Shown here: positions 39,637-46,113 of the stretch, in pieces
How the letters are laid out: every line of letters starts with the position of its first letter
Numbering within the stretch: the first letter of the stretch is position 1
Assembly: GCA_011390345.1 (NCBI GenBank)
Contig: JAABSP010000028.1
Location: 1 to 59,616 of the forward strand
Source: Desulfobacteraceae bacterium
GTDB lineage: Bacteria > Desulfobacterota > Desulfobacteria > Desulfobacterales > JAABSP01
Reading direction: 5' to 3'
Length of the DNA stretch: 59,616 nt
The notes under the pieces: generated by a model
What the model was told of the DNA's origin: nothing
Database searches by the model: none
What the model saw: the letters and a program-made list of their open reading frames with translations, nothing else
Made by a program: the position numbers and the translations under genes

Positions 39637-39927
39637 ATGAGCTTTTATAAAAAGAATCGAGACTGGACCGAACATTTAACCATTGTAATGCAGCTCGGCC
39701 TGACTATGGCCGGAAGCATCATCTTCTGCTTTGCCGTCGGATGGTATATCGATAAATGGCTGGGTACCCGGGGGATCTTTGTAACGATCTTCATCCTGCT
39801 TGGGGTTATCGGCGGCGGCAATGTCGCATACCGGCAGATTATGGAGATCACCCGGCAGAAAGAACCGGAACAGGGTGGGTCAGCCCCGGGAGAGGAGGAT
39901 AAGGAGTACAGAGATGGAAACCCTTAA
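39637..39927 (+). CDS. atpZ: AtpZ/AtpI family F0 accessory protein
   Basis: A 96-residue protein with two membrane helices (MQLGLTMAGSIIFCFAVGWY and IFVTIFILLGVIGGGNVAYR) and the IDKWLGTRG loop typical of the AtpZ/AtpQ-type accessory subunits at the head of F0 operons. Proposed to help in c-ring assembly or Mg2+/ion handling. Its end overlaps the next gene by 14 nt. Confidence 0.82.
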   Translation: MSFYKKNRDWTEHLTIVMQLGLTMAGSIIFCFAVGWYIDKWLGTRGIFVTIFILLGVIGGGNVAYRQIMEITRQKEPEQGGSAPGEEDKEYRDGNP

Positions 39928-40300
39928 ACAGACACGGAACCGATACTGCTCTGCGGCCATGACCGCGGCCATTGTCATCGGACTCGGGCTGATCATCGTA
40001 GACATGCGGCCCATGGGCAAGGGCCTGATTCTGGGCACACTCTTTTCTGTTTTCAATTTCATTCTCATGGCCCAGGCCCTGCCCCTGAGGATGGCGCATA
40101 CAAAAGGTAAAACTCTTTTTTACTCCCTCTTCTCCATTTTTTTCCGTTTTTCTCTCATGGCCGTCCCTCTGATCATAGCCCTCAAGGTCGAAAATTTTGC
40201 CCTGATCGGGGTTCTGATCGGCCTTGTGGCAATTCAGATCATGATTCTTGCCGACCATGTGTTGAGCTTATTCATATCAACTCGTACAGGACAGGTTTAG
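39914..40300 (+). CDS. atpI: ATP synthase subunit I
   Basis: A 128-residue membrane protein with four predicted helices (MTAAIVIGLGLIIVDMRPMG, LILGTLFSVFNFILMAQALP, LFYSLFSIFFRFSLMAVPLI, ALIGVLIGLVAIQIMILADH). It fits AtpI/subunit I proteins that help assemble the c ring, including Na+-type rings. I start at ATG 39914, inside the end of atpZ; a longer upstream frame is the reading-frame shadow of atpZ. Confidence 0.8.
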   Translation: METLKQTRNRYCSAAMTAAIVIGLGLIIVDMRPMGKGLILGTLFSVFNFILMAQALPLRMAHTKGKTLFYSLFSIFFRFSLMAVPLIIALKVENFALIGVLIGLVAIQIMILADHVLSLFISTRTGQV

Positions 40301-40310
40301 GAAAAACGCT

Positions 40311-40985
40311 ATGGAAGATCTCGGTAGGATATCTCAGTTGGTCATTCCCATCATGGGCCATGACATGGTCTTCAACCTCAATGTCATCATCATGACATGG
40401 ATCGTCATGGGCCTCCTCGTATTCTTCGGCATCATGGCCTCCCGAAAGCGGAACGTGCTGCCCAATCCGGTGCAGGTGGTCGGTGAGCTTCTCGTGTCGA
40501 ATCTATACGGGCTCACCGAAGATGCCTTGAACAAAGAGCGGAGCAAGAGCTACTCCCCGCTGATTACCGCACTCTTCATGTTCCTGCTTCTCTCCAACTG
40601 GATAGGGATGATCCCCCACATGCATGAGCCCACAAAGGATTTGAACACGCCGCTGAGCCTTGGGTTCATGGGTTTTGTAATCGCACATTATGCGGGCATC
40701 AGGGCGAAAGGATTCAAAAATTATGCCAAAGCATATTTCGAGCCGATCTTCTTCATGGCGCCCTTGAATATTATCGGTGAAGTGTCGAAAGTGATTTCCA
40801 TTTCCTTTCGTCTGTTCGGAAATATAATGGGAGGATCCATTATCATACTGGTGGTTTCGCACCTGGTCTTCAGCCTGGTGCTGCCCCCGTTTTTGAACGC
40901 CTTTTTCGTTATATTCATCGGTGCAATACAGGCCTTTGTTTTTACAATGCTCACCCTGGTTTACATTGCAGTACAGGTTAATTGA
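40311..40985 (+). CDS. atpB: F0F1 ATP synthase subunit a
   Basis: A 224-residue subunit a. The essential stator arginine lies in SISFRLFGNIMGG, and the last helices QAFVFTMLTLVYIAVQ match the family. N-terminal VIPIMGHDMVFNLNVIIMTW and LLLSNWIGMIPHMHEPTKD are typical. It carries the ion half-channels facing the c ring. The stop is 2 nt before the fused c-subunit start. Short form, like that of Na+- or alternate-type operons. Confidence 0.95.
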   Translation: MEDLGRISQLVIPIMGHDMVFNLNVIIMTWIVMGLLVFFGIMASRKRNVLPNPVQVVGELLVSNLYGLTEDALNKERSKSYSPLITALFMFLLLSNWIGMIPHMHEPTKDLNTPLSLGFMGFVIAHYAGIRAKGFKNYAKAYFEPIFFMAPLNIIGEVSKVISISFRLFGNIMGGSIIILVVSHLVFSLVLPPFLNAFFVIFIGAIQAFVFTMLTLVYIAVQVN

Positions 40986-40987
40986 CT

Positions 40988-41962
40988 ATGGCAATCGAAA
41001 TCGAATCTTGGGTAAAAGTGGCGGCATTTGTCGGAGCCGGGCTCTCGATGGGGCTTGGGGCCATTGGTGCCGCAATCGGTGAAGGTTTTGCCGCTGCAAA
41101 AGCGAATGCGGCCATTTCCCGGAATCCGGGCATATCCGGTGACATTTTCAAACTGATGCTTGTGGGGCAGGCTGTAGCCGAAACCGCAGCCATATTCTCG
41201 CTGGTAATCGGCATAATTCTCCTTTTCTCCAACTATTCAACAGCCTCTATCATCTCGATGGCCGCACTTCTTGGGGCCGGTCTATGTATGGGCTTCGGAG
41301 CGATCGGCTCCGGTGTCGGGTCCGGTTATCCGGCAGGTGAGGCGTGCAAAGGCGTTGCCCGCCAGCCTGAAATGAGAGGACGCCTTACGACCAATATGCT
41401 TATCGGTTCGGCCGTCAGCCAGACCCCTGCCATTTTCTCAATGGTGGTAGCCTTCATGTTGATGTTTCTCAACTTTTCCGGCGCACCCCTGCATCCGACT
41501 TCGGCAGCCCTGCTCGGAGCCGGCCTGGCCACGGGGCTCGCATCCATCGGATCCGGCCTCGGCAGCGGACTTGCCGCCGGCGCGAGCTGTGAGGGATCGG
41601 CCAGACAACCGCTCAATGTCGGTAATATAACTGTTATAATGCTGGTGGGACAGGCCGTATCTCAGACACCATCGATTTTCGGTCTGCTGATCAGTTTTGT
41701 CCTCATGTTCAAGACGTATCCATCCTCGGAATTGCTGGGTGCATCGATGGCTTTGCTCTCCGCGGGACTGTGTACCGGCTTCGGCGGCATCGGCCCCGGT
41801 GTCGGCAACGGCATGACTGCACAAAGTGCCGTTACATGGGTGGCTCGAAATGTTCGGCAGGAATCTGTGCTTATGCGCTCCATGCTGGTAGGGCAGGCGG
41901 TTTCCCAATCGACAGCCATTTATGCTATGGTGATATCGCTGGCACTTATTTTTCTGATATGA
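40988..41962 (+). CDS. Four-hairpin fused F-type c subunit with one ion-binding site
   Basis: A 324-residue proteolipid made of four c-like hairpins in tandem (about 1-80, 81-161, 162-242, 243-324), eight membrane helices in all. Each has the GAGLxxGxGxIG first helix and the MLVGQAV-type second helix. Hairpin 1 keeps both carboxylates, E32 (IGEGF) and E65 (AVAETAAIF). The matching positions in hairpins 2-4 are S112/Q145, S193/Q226 and N274/Q307, so they cannot carry an ion in the usual way. The start at ATG 40988 gives MAIEIE, like MAIEGID of the single c genes. Fused c proteins with lost sites are known in Acetobacterium (two hairpins) and V-type rotors; four hairpins here are seen directly. 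It would build a rotor with few ions per turn, or mix with the normal c subunits. Confidence 0.9.
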   Translation: MAIEIESWVKVAAFVGAGLSMGLGAIGAAIGEGFAAAKANAAISRNPGISGDIFKLMLVGQAVAETAAIFSLVIGIILLFSNYSTASIISMAALLGAGLCMGFGAIGSGVGSGYPAGEACKGVARQPEMRGRLTTNMLIGSAVSQTPAIFSMVVAFMLMFLNFSGAPLHPTSAALLGAGLATGLASIGSGLGSGLAAGASCEGSARQPLNVGNITVIMLVGQAVSQTPSIFGLLISFVLMFKTYPSSELLGASMALLSAGLCTGFGGIGPGVGNGMTAQSAVTWVARNVRQESVLMRSMLVGQAVSQSTAIYAMVISLALIFLI

Positions 41963-42244
<282 letters not shown>

Positions 42245-42330: not shown

Positions 42331-42600
<270 letters not shown>

Positions 42601-42638: not shown

Positions 42639-43106
42639 ATGGAAATCGTCAGCAACATTGCTCTTATCAGCATCAATGAGACCATGATCGTCCAACTGGT
42701 CTCCTTTCTGATCTTTCTGTTTATCATCAATCGGGTGATGTTTCGTCCTTTGAGAGGGGTGATGGGGGAGAGAGAGCAGTTTGTGGAAGGCATCAAATCG
42801 GAGATCTCCGATGCCGAGTCCGAGATGGAGAAGATCAACTCCCTTCTGAAAAAGCAGGAATCCGCCACCCGGCAGCAGGCTTTTGATATGCGTAAAGAGC
42901 TTGAAGACGCGGGAAGTCAGCAGGCCTCGGTCATATTTGCCGCGGCCAGAAAAGAGGTGATGGATTTGAAGGAGCGGACCGAAGAGGAGATCGAAGTACA
43001 GATCAGCGAGGCCAGAAAGAAGCTGAAGGAAGAATCTGAGGCCCTGGCCCTTCGGATTATGGAAAAGATTCTTGAACGGAGAATACCCCATGAAACACAT
43101 CCGTAG
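42639..43106 (+). CDS. atpF: F0 subunit b
   Basis: A 155-residue stator subunit: N-terminal membrane helix (MIVQLVSFLIFLFIINRVMF) with the RPL motif just after it, followed by a long charged helix (about 40-150; EREQFVEGIKSEISDAESEM...). It links F0 to F1 delta. The last 17 nt overlap the b' gene. Confidence 0.85.
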   Translation: MEIVSNIALISINETMIVQLVSFLIFLFIINRVMFRPLRGVMGEREQFVEGIKSEISDAESEMEKINSLLKKQESATRQQAFDMRKELEDAGSQQASVIFAAARKEVMDLKERTEEEIEVQISEARKKLKEESEALALRIMEKILERRIPHETHP

Positions 43107-43662
43107 AAGCATCCGCCTGCTCGGCCCCTCGGCTCTTATAATCGGAGGACTTGCCTTTCCGGCCTGGGCAGCCGAAGATACGGGAAACTGGCGGGGGACG
43201 TATGACCTGGTCATGATGTGGGTCAACTTCGGTATTCTCGCCTTTATCATCGTCAAGTTCGGCAGAAAGCCCCTGATGGATTTTCTCTACAGCCAGAGGG
43301 CCCAAGTGGCAGAGGAGATCGGCCGTCTGGAAGAGGAGAAGAGCCGGATGACGGACAAGATCAACAAAACCTTCAAAATCCTGGATGAAAGCGACGCGCA
43401 CTTTGAAAAGATCAAGGAGCGGATCGTTGAAGAAGGGGAAAAGCGGAAGCAGGAGATCATCGATGAGGCCAATGAGCAGAGCCGGATGATCATCGAAATG
43501 TCCAAACAGAAGGTCGGAAACAAGATCTATCGGGCCCGGGAGAACTTCCGGGCCGAACTGGTCGATTTGGCCATGGAACTGGCCATGAAGCGCATCCCCG
43601 GCGAGATCACCCAAGAGGACAACGAACGCTTGATCGAGGAGTACATCTCCGCGGCCGGTTAG
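43090..43662 (+). CDS. atpF: F0 subunit b' (second b-type stator)
   Basis: A 190-residue b-type subunit from ATG 43090 (ACGGAGA 8 nt upstream). It begins with a hydrophobic, signal-like stretch (LLGPSALIIGGLAFPAWAAE), then a second membrane helix (VMMWVNFGILAFIIVKFG) with KPLMDFL, and a long coiled helix. The cleavable-looking first segment is common in deltaproteobacterial b' proteins. Last gene of the operon; a terminator follows and no F1 genes. Confidence 0.85.
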   Translation: MKHIRRSIRLLGPSALIIGGLAFPAWAAEDTGNWRGTYDLVMMWVNFGILAFIIVKFGRKPLMDFLYSQRAQVAEEIGRLEEEKSRMTDKINKTFKILDESDAHFEKIKERIVEEGEKRKQEIIDEANEQSRMIIEMSKQKVGNKIYRARENFRAELVDLAMELAMKRIPGEITQEDNERLIEEYISAAG

Positions 43663-43781: not shown

Positions 43782-45136
43782 TTCAATTTATATTACTGGA
43801 AATCCCGCTTTGACGAACACGGATATGCGGGGCTGGAAGCCTTTGAAAGCAAAGCCTCGAAGAATCCGCGCAAGACCCCGCCTGACGTAGAGGCACAGGT
43901 GATCGAGATGCGGCGCAAGCATCCGAAATGGGGCAGACAGGGCATTGCCGACGAACTGGCAAAAGCAAACGGCTGGAAACCCCTTGTCAGTGCCAATACC
44001 GTCAAGCGGATACTGAAAGACGCCGGCCTGTGGGAAACCATTGAGGCCGACGTAAAAAAAAATCCCGGAAGAGGAGAAGCCGCACCGCAGCAGAGCCGGA
44101 ACAGACCGCAAACATTGACCTGTGCTTTGTTCCCGCCACCCACGAAGACGTAACGAAACTGCCTGCGGTAAGCGGATCTTCGGGCAAACTGAAGGTGCAG
44201 CCCCCGAAGGCGGAGACGGATGATCGAACATGGCCCGGACAGGTGTTCGAAGATCCGGAGCTGGACTATACAGAGGCAATGCTTGAGTATGTAGCCGCCT
44301 CTCAGGAACGGGATGAACAGCGGGCAAACAGTCCTGATGATGCCCAAACGCCGGTTCCGGAGACTCCCAAGGCCGAAAAGAAGGCATTGAAGCGTGAAGA
44401 AGAGCAACTGCGGGACGAACGGCGGTCTGTTCGGGAGCAGAGGAAGATCGAGGACGAGGCCTGGAAGGAGACTCGGGCAGCCCGGAAGGAAGAGCAGGAG
44501 GCGTTCAAGGAGCTTCCGAAGGAGGAACGGCGGCAGCAGAAAGCCGCCAAAGAAGCTGCTGACGAGTACTGGCGGAAGATGCATGAACAGCGCCGTGCCA
44601 AGCAGCAGCAGCGGAAAGAGGAGGACAGGGGATGGCGGGAAACGCGGAACAGTCTTCGTGAGCAGATGTCCCGGCTGCCCGTTGTCATGGCCTGGGTCGC
44701 CATTCTTGTTGTCATCGACAACTGTACCCGGCAGTGTTTTGGCCTCCCGCTCTTCGTCGTCGGCCCTCATGTAACCTCCGAAATGATCGTTGAAGCCCTG
44801 GAGTCGCTCCTGCCGCCTGAACTCCAGTTTCTGATTTCGGATCGGGGCATTCACTTCAAGGCCGGCGTCTTCAAAAATTTTCTGCTCAGCAAGGAGGTTA
44901 TCCATGTCCTCATCTCCCGCCAGCGACCCGAAACGAACGGAATCGCCGAGCGTTTTGTCCGAACCCTCAAAGATTGGCTGGAGGATAAAACCTGGAGCAG
45001 CGATGAGGAACTGGCAGCTCTTCTGGAGCAATTCCTGAAAGAATATAATGATCGCCCGCATCAGGGCCTGGATATGCCGGGTTTATCCCCCAATGAGTAT
45101 GCCAGACGCCTGAAGCTCAGGCAGCCTGACGGTTAG
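43782..45136 (+). pseudogene. IS transposase (DDE/rve core), 5' truncated and split by a -1 frameshift
   Basis: The first frame (to 44153) begins inside a helix-turn-helix region without a start codon (FNLYYWKSRFDEHGYAGLEA) and continues MRRKHPKWGRQGIADELAKA. The second frame holds the integrase core: first Asp in NIDLCFVPATHED (near 44117), VVIDNCTRQCFGLPLFVV, second Asp in LISDRGIHF and the Glu in ETNGIAERFVRTLKDW, then YNDRPHQGLDMPGLSPNEYA. A run of nine As (44054-44062) is where the frames join by -1, so programmed slippage of the IS3/IS1 kind is possible. Between the first Asp and the next strand is a highly charged insertion of about 150 residues rich in Arg, Lys and Glu. No terminal inverted repeats are evident, and the N-terminus is lost next to the F0 terminator. 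Confidence 0.75.
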
Positions 45137-45399: not shown

Positions 45400-46113
45400 T
45401 TACAGATCCTCCAGCCGCTTCCAGACCCAGATCGCCCTCCCCAGACAGAGATCCCGCCAGTCCAGCCGGGTCAGCTCCGGCGGATAGTCGGGATTGCTGC
45501 TGATGAGCACGAATCCCTCGTCCCAGGTCTGCACCCGTTTGACGGCCGCGATGTTCTCACCCTCCGAGGGATAGTTGACCGCATAGACCCGGTTGTTGAT
45601 CATCTCCTGGTCATCCATGTCAACTATCACGATGGAGCCTTGGGGGATCAAAGGGCTCATACTGAGGCCCCCCACATTCAGCCCTACCAGATGGTGGTTT
45701 CGCCGCCCTGTGAGCTCCTGCTCGCTGAGCATCAGGGAGGAGGCCGGCTCCTCAAACGGGTCGAAGATCATTCCTTTGGCCCCGGCTGCAAGCTTTCCCG
45801 ATGCATAGACCGCAATTCCCTTGTACGCGGTCTCATCATCCGGAGTCGGCAGCATATTTGCGGCAAAGCTGACCGGCGACGGCTCCCCCGCCTCCAGAAG
45901 CCGCCTTCCCAATGCCAGAAATTCGAAGATATCCAGATCAAAGGCCATCGCAATCTTCGCCTGAGTCTTGGGGCCATAGGACTTCTTCTTCAAGATCTCG
46001 CTCAACACGCTCGGGCTCACGCCGGCCGCCTTTGCTACGGCCCGCTGATTCGGGTATTCCGAATTATCAAGACAGTACCGCAGCGCTGTCCGGAACATTT
46101 CGATTGTCTCCAT
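45400..46113 (-). CDS. S24 family repressor (CI/LexA-like, HTH plus autopeptidase)
   Basis: A 237-residue regulator. Residues 1-70 are a helix-turn-helix (NQRAVAKAAGVSPSVLSEIL). The C-terminal half is an S24 peptidase fold with nucleophile S151 in GGLSMSPLIPQGS and the general-base lysine K192 in NIAAVKRV. Such repressors cleave themselves on RecA-DNA signals or act as plain repressors. A GAGGAG site precedes the ATG. The gene is divergent from a strong promoter carrying two related palindromes, its likely operators. May be a prophage remnant or a resident stress regulator. Confidence 0.88.
   Translation of the reverse strand: METIEMFRTALRYCLDNSEYPNQRAVAKAAGVSPSVLSEILKKKSYGPKTQAKIAMAFDLDIFEFLALGRRLLEAGEPSPVSFAANMLPTPDDETAYKGIAVYASGKLAAGAKGMIFDPFEEPASSLMLSEQELTGRRNHHLVGLNVGGLSMSPLIPQGSIVIVDMDDQEMINNRVYAVNYPSEGENIAAVKRVQTWDEGFVLISSNPDYPPELTRLDWRDLCLGRAIWVWKRLEDL

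Follow-up and report, generated by a model that had tools for sequence, protein, structure and literature searches.

A four-hairpin fused c subunit with glutamine in place of the ion-binding glutamate in three hairpins, encoded in a Na+-type F0 operon of a Desulfobacteraceae bacterium

The stretch of DNA analysed here (59,616 nucleotides; hereafter the window) contains an F0 operon whose features are listed in Table 1. The fused c gene stands in an F-type context, with atpB upstream and two one-hairpin c genes and two b-type genes downstream. AtpZ also lies upstream of subunit a in most loci of relatives, the gene order a - fused c - c - b is common to loci across phyla, and the stator Arg was retained in all 111 a ORFs (105 by pattern, 6 by reading). 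The first b-type gene was labelled b' from its best NCBIfam match, which is below cut-off. No F1 genes were found within the window downstream of the second b-type gene. The two one-hairpin c genes encode identical 82-aa proteins and differ at 19 of 249 nucleotides, indicating that they are genuine twins and not a copied assembly block. Just after the operon (43899-45136) come two ORFs, one matching HTH_32 below cut-off and one encoding an integrase core (rve_3); they probably represent a mobile element inserted there. An S24-type repressor ORF (Peptidase_S24, 52 bits) lies downstream of the integrase on the minus strand (45400-46113).

Table 1. Genes of the F0 operon in the window
Feature	Position	Strand	Remarks
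AtpZ / ATPase gene 1 protein, first gene of the operon	39637..39927	+	PF09527, 54.2 bits, above cut-off
AtpI family	39902..40300 (frame from 39902, start codon not fixed)	+	PF03899, 35.8 bits, above cut-off
atpB, subunit a (stator), conserved Arg (SFRLFGN)	40311..40985	+	PF00119, 173 bits
Four-hairpin fused c subunit	40988..41962	+	E32/E65 in hairpin 1; Q145, Q226, Q307 in hairpins 2-4
Normal one-hairpin c, copy 1	41996..42244	+	Full two-carboxylate Na+ site; strong ribosome site, GGAGG
Normal one-hairpin c, copy 2	42352..42600	+	Protein identical to copy 1
First b-type peripheral stalk gene	42639..43106	+	PF00430, 61 bits, above cut-off
Second b-type peripheral stalk gene, operon end	43072..43662	+	PF00430, 54 bits, above cut-off

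Translation of the fused ORF gave 324 aa without internal stops. In a profile search, PF00137 matched four stretches of the protein (194 bits; cut-off 24), and the protein passed F-type models, e.g. with 212.9 bits summed across the four hairpins against a cut-off of 124. All curated V-type K models stayed below their cut-offs (the best, NF011483, reached 115.8 vs 188 bits), and identity as a V-type proteolipid K was therefore rejected. The first-pass annotation had divided the protein into four c-type repeats (residues 1-80, 81-161, 162-242 and 243-324); these limits held, and a position read-out agreed with every residue it had named (E32, E65, S112, Q145, S193, Q226, N274 and Q307). Its further claim of a single ion-binding site was correct in that E65 is present only in hairpin 1 and Gln occupies the position in hairpins 2-4; however, the remaining site is not a canonical Na+ site. 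Hairpin 1 retains E32, V63, E65 and S/T66, but P28, T67 and Y70 of the normal c are replaced in it by A28, A67 and F70.

A strong relative of the fused c was present in 106 of the 194 genomes of the order, the host genome included. Of these matches, 105 had a best E value of at most 1.4e-48 and one, a partial match, had 9.7e-36; a few of the 106 genomes had only two or three hairpins. A second collection, made by scanning one genome per species, gave 115 loci encoding a relative, 80 of which were kept. Their record titles, which may err since most of these loci are metagenome assemblies, were mostly Desulfobacterota, the nearest being Desulfobacteraceae or Desulfobacterales; Cloacimonadota, Hydrogenedentota, Latescibacterota, Coatesbacteria, Planctomycetota and Nitrospiraceae also occurred. 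Two names of cultured species appeared among the relatives, Dethiosulfatarculus sandiegensis and Desulfosarcina cetonica. The database search for further multi-hairpin F-type c subunits that had been proposed at the outset thus yielded many relatives, with three to six hairpins. The possibility that sequencing or assembly error had merged the repeats, a caveat raised with the first-pass annotation, is excluded by these relatives in other assemblies, both in the order and elsewhere, and by the nucleotide differences between the neighbouring c twins. These findings confirmed that the fused gene is genuine.

RnfC was above cut-off in 66 of the 194 order genomes, and the host genome had only a below-cut-off match. 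The fused gene was present in 43 of the 66 RnfC genomes vs 63 of the 128 others (Fisher p 0.047, uncorrected for kinship). One order genome, G150, has a second fused c gene together with a 27-residue remnant of an a gene (G150:C1:2940243-2941899), which looks like an additional F0 operon in decay. Another, G049, has a Na+-type F0 (AtpZ, AtpI, a, c with SEVESTY, and a b-type gene; locus L144, G049:C1:2561903) without a fused c, reflecting either loss or the ancestral state. The fused gene is therefore dispensable in G049.

We used a hairpin profile to read positions 28, 32, 63-67 and 70 in each hairpin of 109 fused genes having 3-6 hairpins. The two locus collections may repeat species, and thinning at 90% left 83 non-redundant genes. 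Own-genome duplicates (L001-L003, L005-L007, L011) and a cut locus (L043) were left out of the counts; four genes cut at contig ends (L081, L085, L093, L117), one split by a frameshift (L090) and one with a spurious extra hairpin (L079) were kept within the 109. The commonest class, four hairpins with one carboxylate, accounted for 41 of the 83 non-redundant genes. The longest carboxylate-free run was 0 hairpins in 1 gene, 1 in 9, 2 in 18, 3 in 40, 4 in 11 and 5 in 4, so that 55 of the 83 have a neutral run of at least three hairpins. Beyond the first hairpin, position 65 of the non-redundant genes was Gln in 224 hairpins, Glu in 35, Asp in 3 and Ile in 1. Gln thus occupies 224 of the 225 carboxylate-free hairpins, indicating that loss of the carboxylate is a specific, retained substitution.

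First hairpins with E65 (n=94) never had the P28/T67/Y70 set; all 94 had Phe70, and 91 had Ala28. In the Hydrogenedentota-type group, position 65 of the first hairpin was mostly Gly or Ser. Four non-redundant four-hairpin genes (L104, L108, L114, L119) have a carboxylate in no hairpin, and F1 genes then follow; a fifth carboxylate-free entry, L090, is the frameshift piece. The number of dead sites varies. Some relatives have two or three live hairpins: the D. cetonica gene reads EE.SQ.EE.EE, and the five-hairpin gene of D. sandiegensis (L071) reads EE.SQ.SQ.NQ.EE. In some Cloacimonadota, each of the three hairpins has Glu.

A one-hairpin c follows the fused gene in all loci read except L015, L023 and L081, where the contig ends. 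The 109 one-hairpin rows, less the H+-type c of the host (L004) and the first piece of L090, gave 107 partner ORFs. All 107 had P28, E/Q32, V63, E65, S66 (T66 in L114), T67 and Y70; in the normal c of the window the set is P28, E32, V63, E65, S66, T67 and Y70, a Na+ motif. The available text of PMC3692424 describes a two-carboxylate Na+ site in Fusobacterium nucleatum c that uses E32, V63, E65, S66, T67 and Y70. The partner residues match this site, save for Q32 in place of E32 in some.

The dN/dS of the window gene against L041 was 0.051, with 0.061, 0.047 and 0.035 for hairpins 1, 3 and 4; these values are rough, because hairpin 2 was saturated and dS was high throughout. Eight other pairs gave 0.013-0.107 in seven cases and saturation in one. 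The fused gene is under purifying selection (dN/dS about 0.01-0.11), and the low dN/dS together with the fixed Gln rules out a pseudogene.

The ATG of the fused gene lies 2 nt past the atpB stop and has a weak ribosome site; both c genes of the window have GGAGG. Across 102 loci, which are related to one another, the mean duplex energy with the 16S tail was -4.31 kcal/mol for the fused gene and -9.67 kcal/mol for c. The site was stronger at c in 91 loci, stronger at the fused gene in 10 and equal in 1; the 11 exceptions include Hydrogenedentota L103 and, weakly, L108. Start codons were chosen by rule, and the stronger site was used where two one-hairpin rows were present (the window and L090). 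The distance from atpB to the start of the fused gene had a median of 3 nt (100 loci). A weak site close behind atpB combined with a strong site at c fits one fused subunit per ring. Judged by these signals, synthesis of the fused subunit may keep pace with that of a, giving about one copy per complex, with c made in surplus.

In the second collection, 62 of the 80 loci have a flank of 2.5 kb or more after the last c gene. In 44 of these, whose titles read Desulfo-, Deltaproteobacteria, Proteobacteria or Olavius-symbiont, the operon was F0-only. The remaining 18, which comprise Hydrogenedentota, Cloacimonadota, two titled 'uncultured bacterium' and the Deltaproteobacteria L091 and L092, continue into F1 genes. 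F1 genes were also seen in three of the 18 loci with a shorter flank. The F1 set of the host lies on another contig with two b-type genes of its own (G000:C151:1413-7286), and a second F0 (AtpZ, AtpI, a, c) lies on a third (G000:C88:16376-17358). The c of this second F0 is H+-type, with CQMESLY vs PEVESTY in the partner of the fused gene. One alpha and one gamma gene were found in the host genome.

We extended the gene counts to a chosen set of 26 order genomes, of which 23 carry the fused gene and three lack it. The a genes exceeded the gamma genes by one in 22 of the 23; G054, the 23rd, has two a and no gamma. The 27-residue a piece of G150, a below-cut-off gamma end in G069 and the gamma of G059, which lies in two overlapping pieces on two contigs, were not counted as extra. 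Seven of the nine single-contig genomes with the fused gene (G066, G070, G115, G117, G150, G171, G185) have two a, one alpha and one gamma; the other two have three, two and two (G010) and two, none and none (G054). In the genomes without the fused gene, a and gamma numbered two and one (G049), two and two (G129) and one and one (G168). The second F0 carries an H+-type c wherever it was read among the checked genomes. The surplus of one a over gamma suggests that one F1 probably serves two F0. By these gene counts, the only F1 of the host probably works with the Na+ F0 as well as with the H+-type F0.

Gene content was also read in 26 assemblies reached via the loci (24 outside the core of the order, plus those of L071 and L051), in which incompleteness could hide further sets. 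In nine of them (G197, G198, G203, G206, G207, G212, G213, G216, G217) the fused gene belongs to the sole ATP synthase found: there is one alpha/beta set, and all c matches fall in the fused gene and its neighbour. G202 and G205 resemble these nine, but have F1 on another contig. Rho and flagellar-type ATPases, which PF00006 also matches, were set aside by length and score.

An AlphaFold2 model of the fused c had pLDDT 94.3 and pTM 0.90 (47 aligned relatives), and that of a six-hairpin relative had a mean pLDDT of 90.1 (five sequences). The sole PDB match under E 0.001 in Foldseek was Acetobacterium woodii c1 in its ring, to which VIA-align gave Z 16.5 (1.6 A over 157 residues). V-type proteolipid chains gave Z 12.0-13.6. 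Because designed helical repeats also reached 13.2, only A. woodii c1 stands clear among the fold matches. In a tree of 155 hairpins (75 columns, weakly resolved), many hairpins grouped by position across phyla. The three A. woodii hairpins (c1 and c2) formed their own group apart from the fused-c family (SH-aLRT 99, 75 columns), so that the fused c may have arisen independently. The extra hairpins of several five- and six-hairpin forms fell among the second-hairpin types, a placement that suggests growth in hairpin number by the copying of dead hairpins.

The fused gene probably encodes a covalent arc of a mixed Na+ rotor, permanently neutral over its dead hairpins, which would lower the number of ions per turn. 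A rotor of this kind had been suggested in the first-pass annotation and is the best-supported reading, given the pairing with a Na+-type c, the A. woodii-like Glu-to-Gln change, purifying selection, the translation signals and its presence in the sole ATP synthase found in some assemblies; ring membership, one copy per ring, the ion ratio, F1 sharing and the direction of use are what we infer from the genes. About one fused subunit would enter each ring, alongside several one-hairpin c of the Na+-type F0. Gln resembles a neutral, loaded Glu. At position 65 it could mimic loaded Glu, so that hairpins 2-4 would fill space in the ring and neither take up nor release ions. If the ring had 11 hairpins, as assumed from related Na+ rings, it would have at most eight sites and transport 2.67 vs 3.67 Na+ per ATP. 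ATP synthesis would then need about 194 mV (eight sites) vs 141 mV (11 sites) at an assumed 50 kJ/mol, and on ATP hydrolysis the motor could pump Na+ against a larger force. Since the host operon supplies F0 only, a shared F1 would leave the cell with two interchangeable gearboxes on one catalytic head. A homomeric ring of fused subunits was rejected: at 50 kJ/mol, 12 hairpins with three sites would demand a force of about 0.5 V, and four non-redundant relatives are without any carboxylate.

In models of F0 rotation, a carboxylate meets the stator Arg at each step. A tentative extension of the mixed rotor, which we hold with less confidence, is a motor working as an interrupted gear, with one neutral arc per ring, in which, within this order, the blank-arc Na+ F0 and the plain H+ F0 alternate on the shared F1. 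The arc would commonly span three and up to five hairpins. With three dead hairpins of 11, the live sites on either side of the arc would lie about 131 degrees apart, more than the 120-degree step of F1, so that roughly one ATP step per turn would proceed without ion flow, carried by elastic energy or by ATP. ATP synthesis was abolished by one Glu-to-Gln change (E56Q) in a c10 ring of Bacillus PS3 engineered as a single chain (PMC8809890); a motor with three to five consecutive dead hairpins could therefore stall. The PS3 ring did not evolve for Gln, and it shows that one Gln can stop such a ring. The same source reports that two Asp-slowed sites were less harmful when adjacent (PMC8809890), an effect that fits dead hairpins joined in one chain.

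The PS3 result bears also on a different role, in which the blank arc is a brake, present in a fraction of rings, that parks at subunit a and, when the sodium-motive force is low, keeps ions from leaking or ATP from being hydrolysed wastefully. The block of ATP synthesis by E56Q alone, the weak initiation of the fused gene and the prevalence of neutral runs of three or more hairpins (55/83) are consistent with a brake; however, coupling to atpB and the presence of the fused gene in the only ATP synthase found in 9 of the 26 assemblies fit a constant part better, and we consider a brake quite unlikely. An assembly ruler would explain the coupling to atpB, with few copies expected, as well as the lineage-dependent hairpin number (3 to 6) and the dead hairpins kept neutral by Gln and not lost at random. 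The fused subunit would then nucleate the ring and set its size as a fixed-length covalent arc; the changed ion ratio would be a side effect, and the lost sites would be tolerated or would prevent Na+ leak from a half-built ring. But a ruler has no need of carboxylate loss, live hairpins recur in some lineages, and ordinary rings are known to assemble without one. We regard this role as unlikely.

Because its place in the ring is deduced from genes, the fused protein might also be a non-rotor paralogue that forms a separate membrane body or acts as an assembly helper. This is very improbable, given that its sequence and fold match A. woodii c1, a member of a solved ring, and that the gene order a - fused c - c - b is kept across phyla. 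A decaying duplicate or an assembly artefact could account for the absence of Glu from three of four hairpins; its probability is negligible, as it is refuted by the occurrence in 106/194 order genomes and in other phyla, the low dN/dS and the fixed Gln.

If the mixed rotor is correct, it offers a natural case of gear-ratio change by fusing and disabling rotor units and a natural test of motor mechanism: with as many as five Gln hairpins side by side, the family would reveal how rotation proceeds across an extended neutral stretch. Many anaerobic bacteria carry relatives in which three to six units are fused. Should a single F1 serve both F0 types, this would also break the customary one-to-one match between F0 and F1 gene sets. 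The abstract of PMC12229609 quotes 2.7 as the low end of the natural ion/ATP range, and fused-c rotors could give ratios at or below 2.7.

F-type hybrid rotors with a fused, partly dead c are already known from A. woodii and Clostridium aceticum. We found no characterised four-hairpin F-type c in the literature searched, most subscription papers and a 2015 hybrid-rotor review being outside its reach; fused-c size, the number of consecutive dead sites, their spread and the F0-only setting were likewise not found in the searchable literature. Brandt and Mueller (Biol Chem, 2015) reportedly surveyed hybrid rotors and listed twelve species that have one c of F type and one of V type, and earlier notice of some fused genes is therefore possible. 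For Desulfatiglandales, two to four atpE copies have been described, with the ion not settled (PMC13343851); the accessible passages of that paper on atpE copies make no mention of fused hairpins.

The closest known system is the hybrid F/V rotor of A. woodii, whose c1 (PDB 4bem chain J) was the best match in both sequence and fold. In both organisms, a fused multi-hairpin c lies beside a one-hairpin c in one F-type Na+ operon; A. woodii too has two identical one-hairpin c copies (PMC7911925, in the part available). In A. woodii c1, Glu is kept together with Phe70 in the first hairpin (AETSGIF) and replaced by Gln in the second (AQTTGIY), the Glu-to-Gln change also found here. However, A. woodii c1 has two hairpins and one lost site, whereas the window gene has four hairpins, three lost sites and one atypical site, and its relatives have 3-6 hairpins and up to five consecutive lost sites. 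The solved A. woodii ring consists of 9 c2 chains and 1 c1 chain and, according to the available portion of PMC7793690, has 10 sites; one dead hairpin is thus compatible with a working enzyme. C. aceticum has a c1 whose second site reads Q....QT beside a one-hairpin Na+ c2 (PMC7911925, same part), but this c1 has two hairpins only, as against four in the window gene. The F. nucleatum c11 ring (PDB 3zk1) shares its Na+ site residues with the normal c of the window, for which it was among the best PDB matches after A. woodii; in contrast, it is homomeric, with neither a fused subunit nor dead sites. V-type proteolipids (subunit c/K) likewise have fused hairpins and fewer sites than hairpins, whereas the window gene lies in an F-type operon. 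The PS3 c10 ring is a man-made fusion of hairpins with chosen carboxylate changes; the natural fused-c family keeps one to five Gln.
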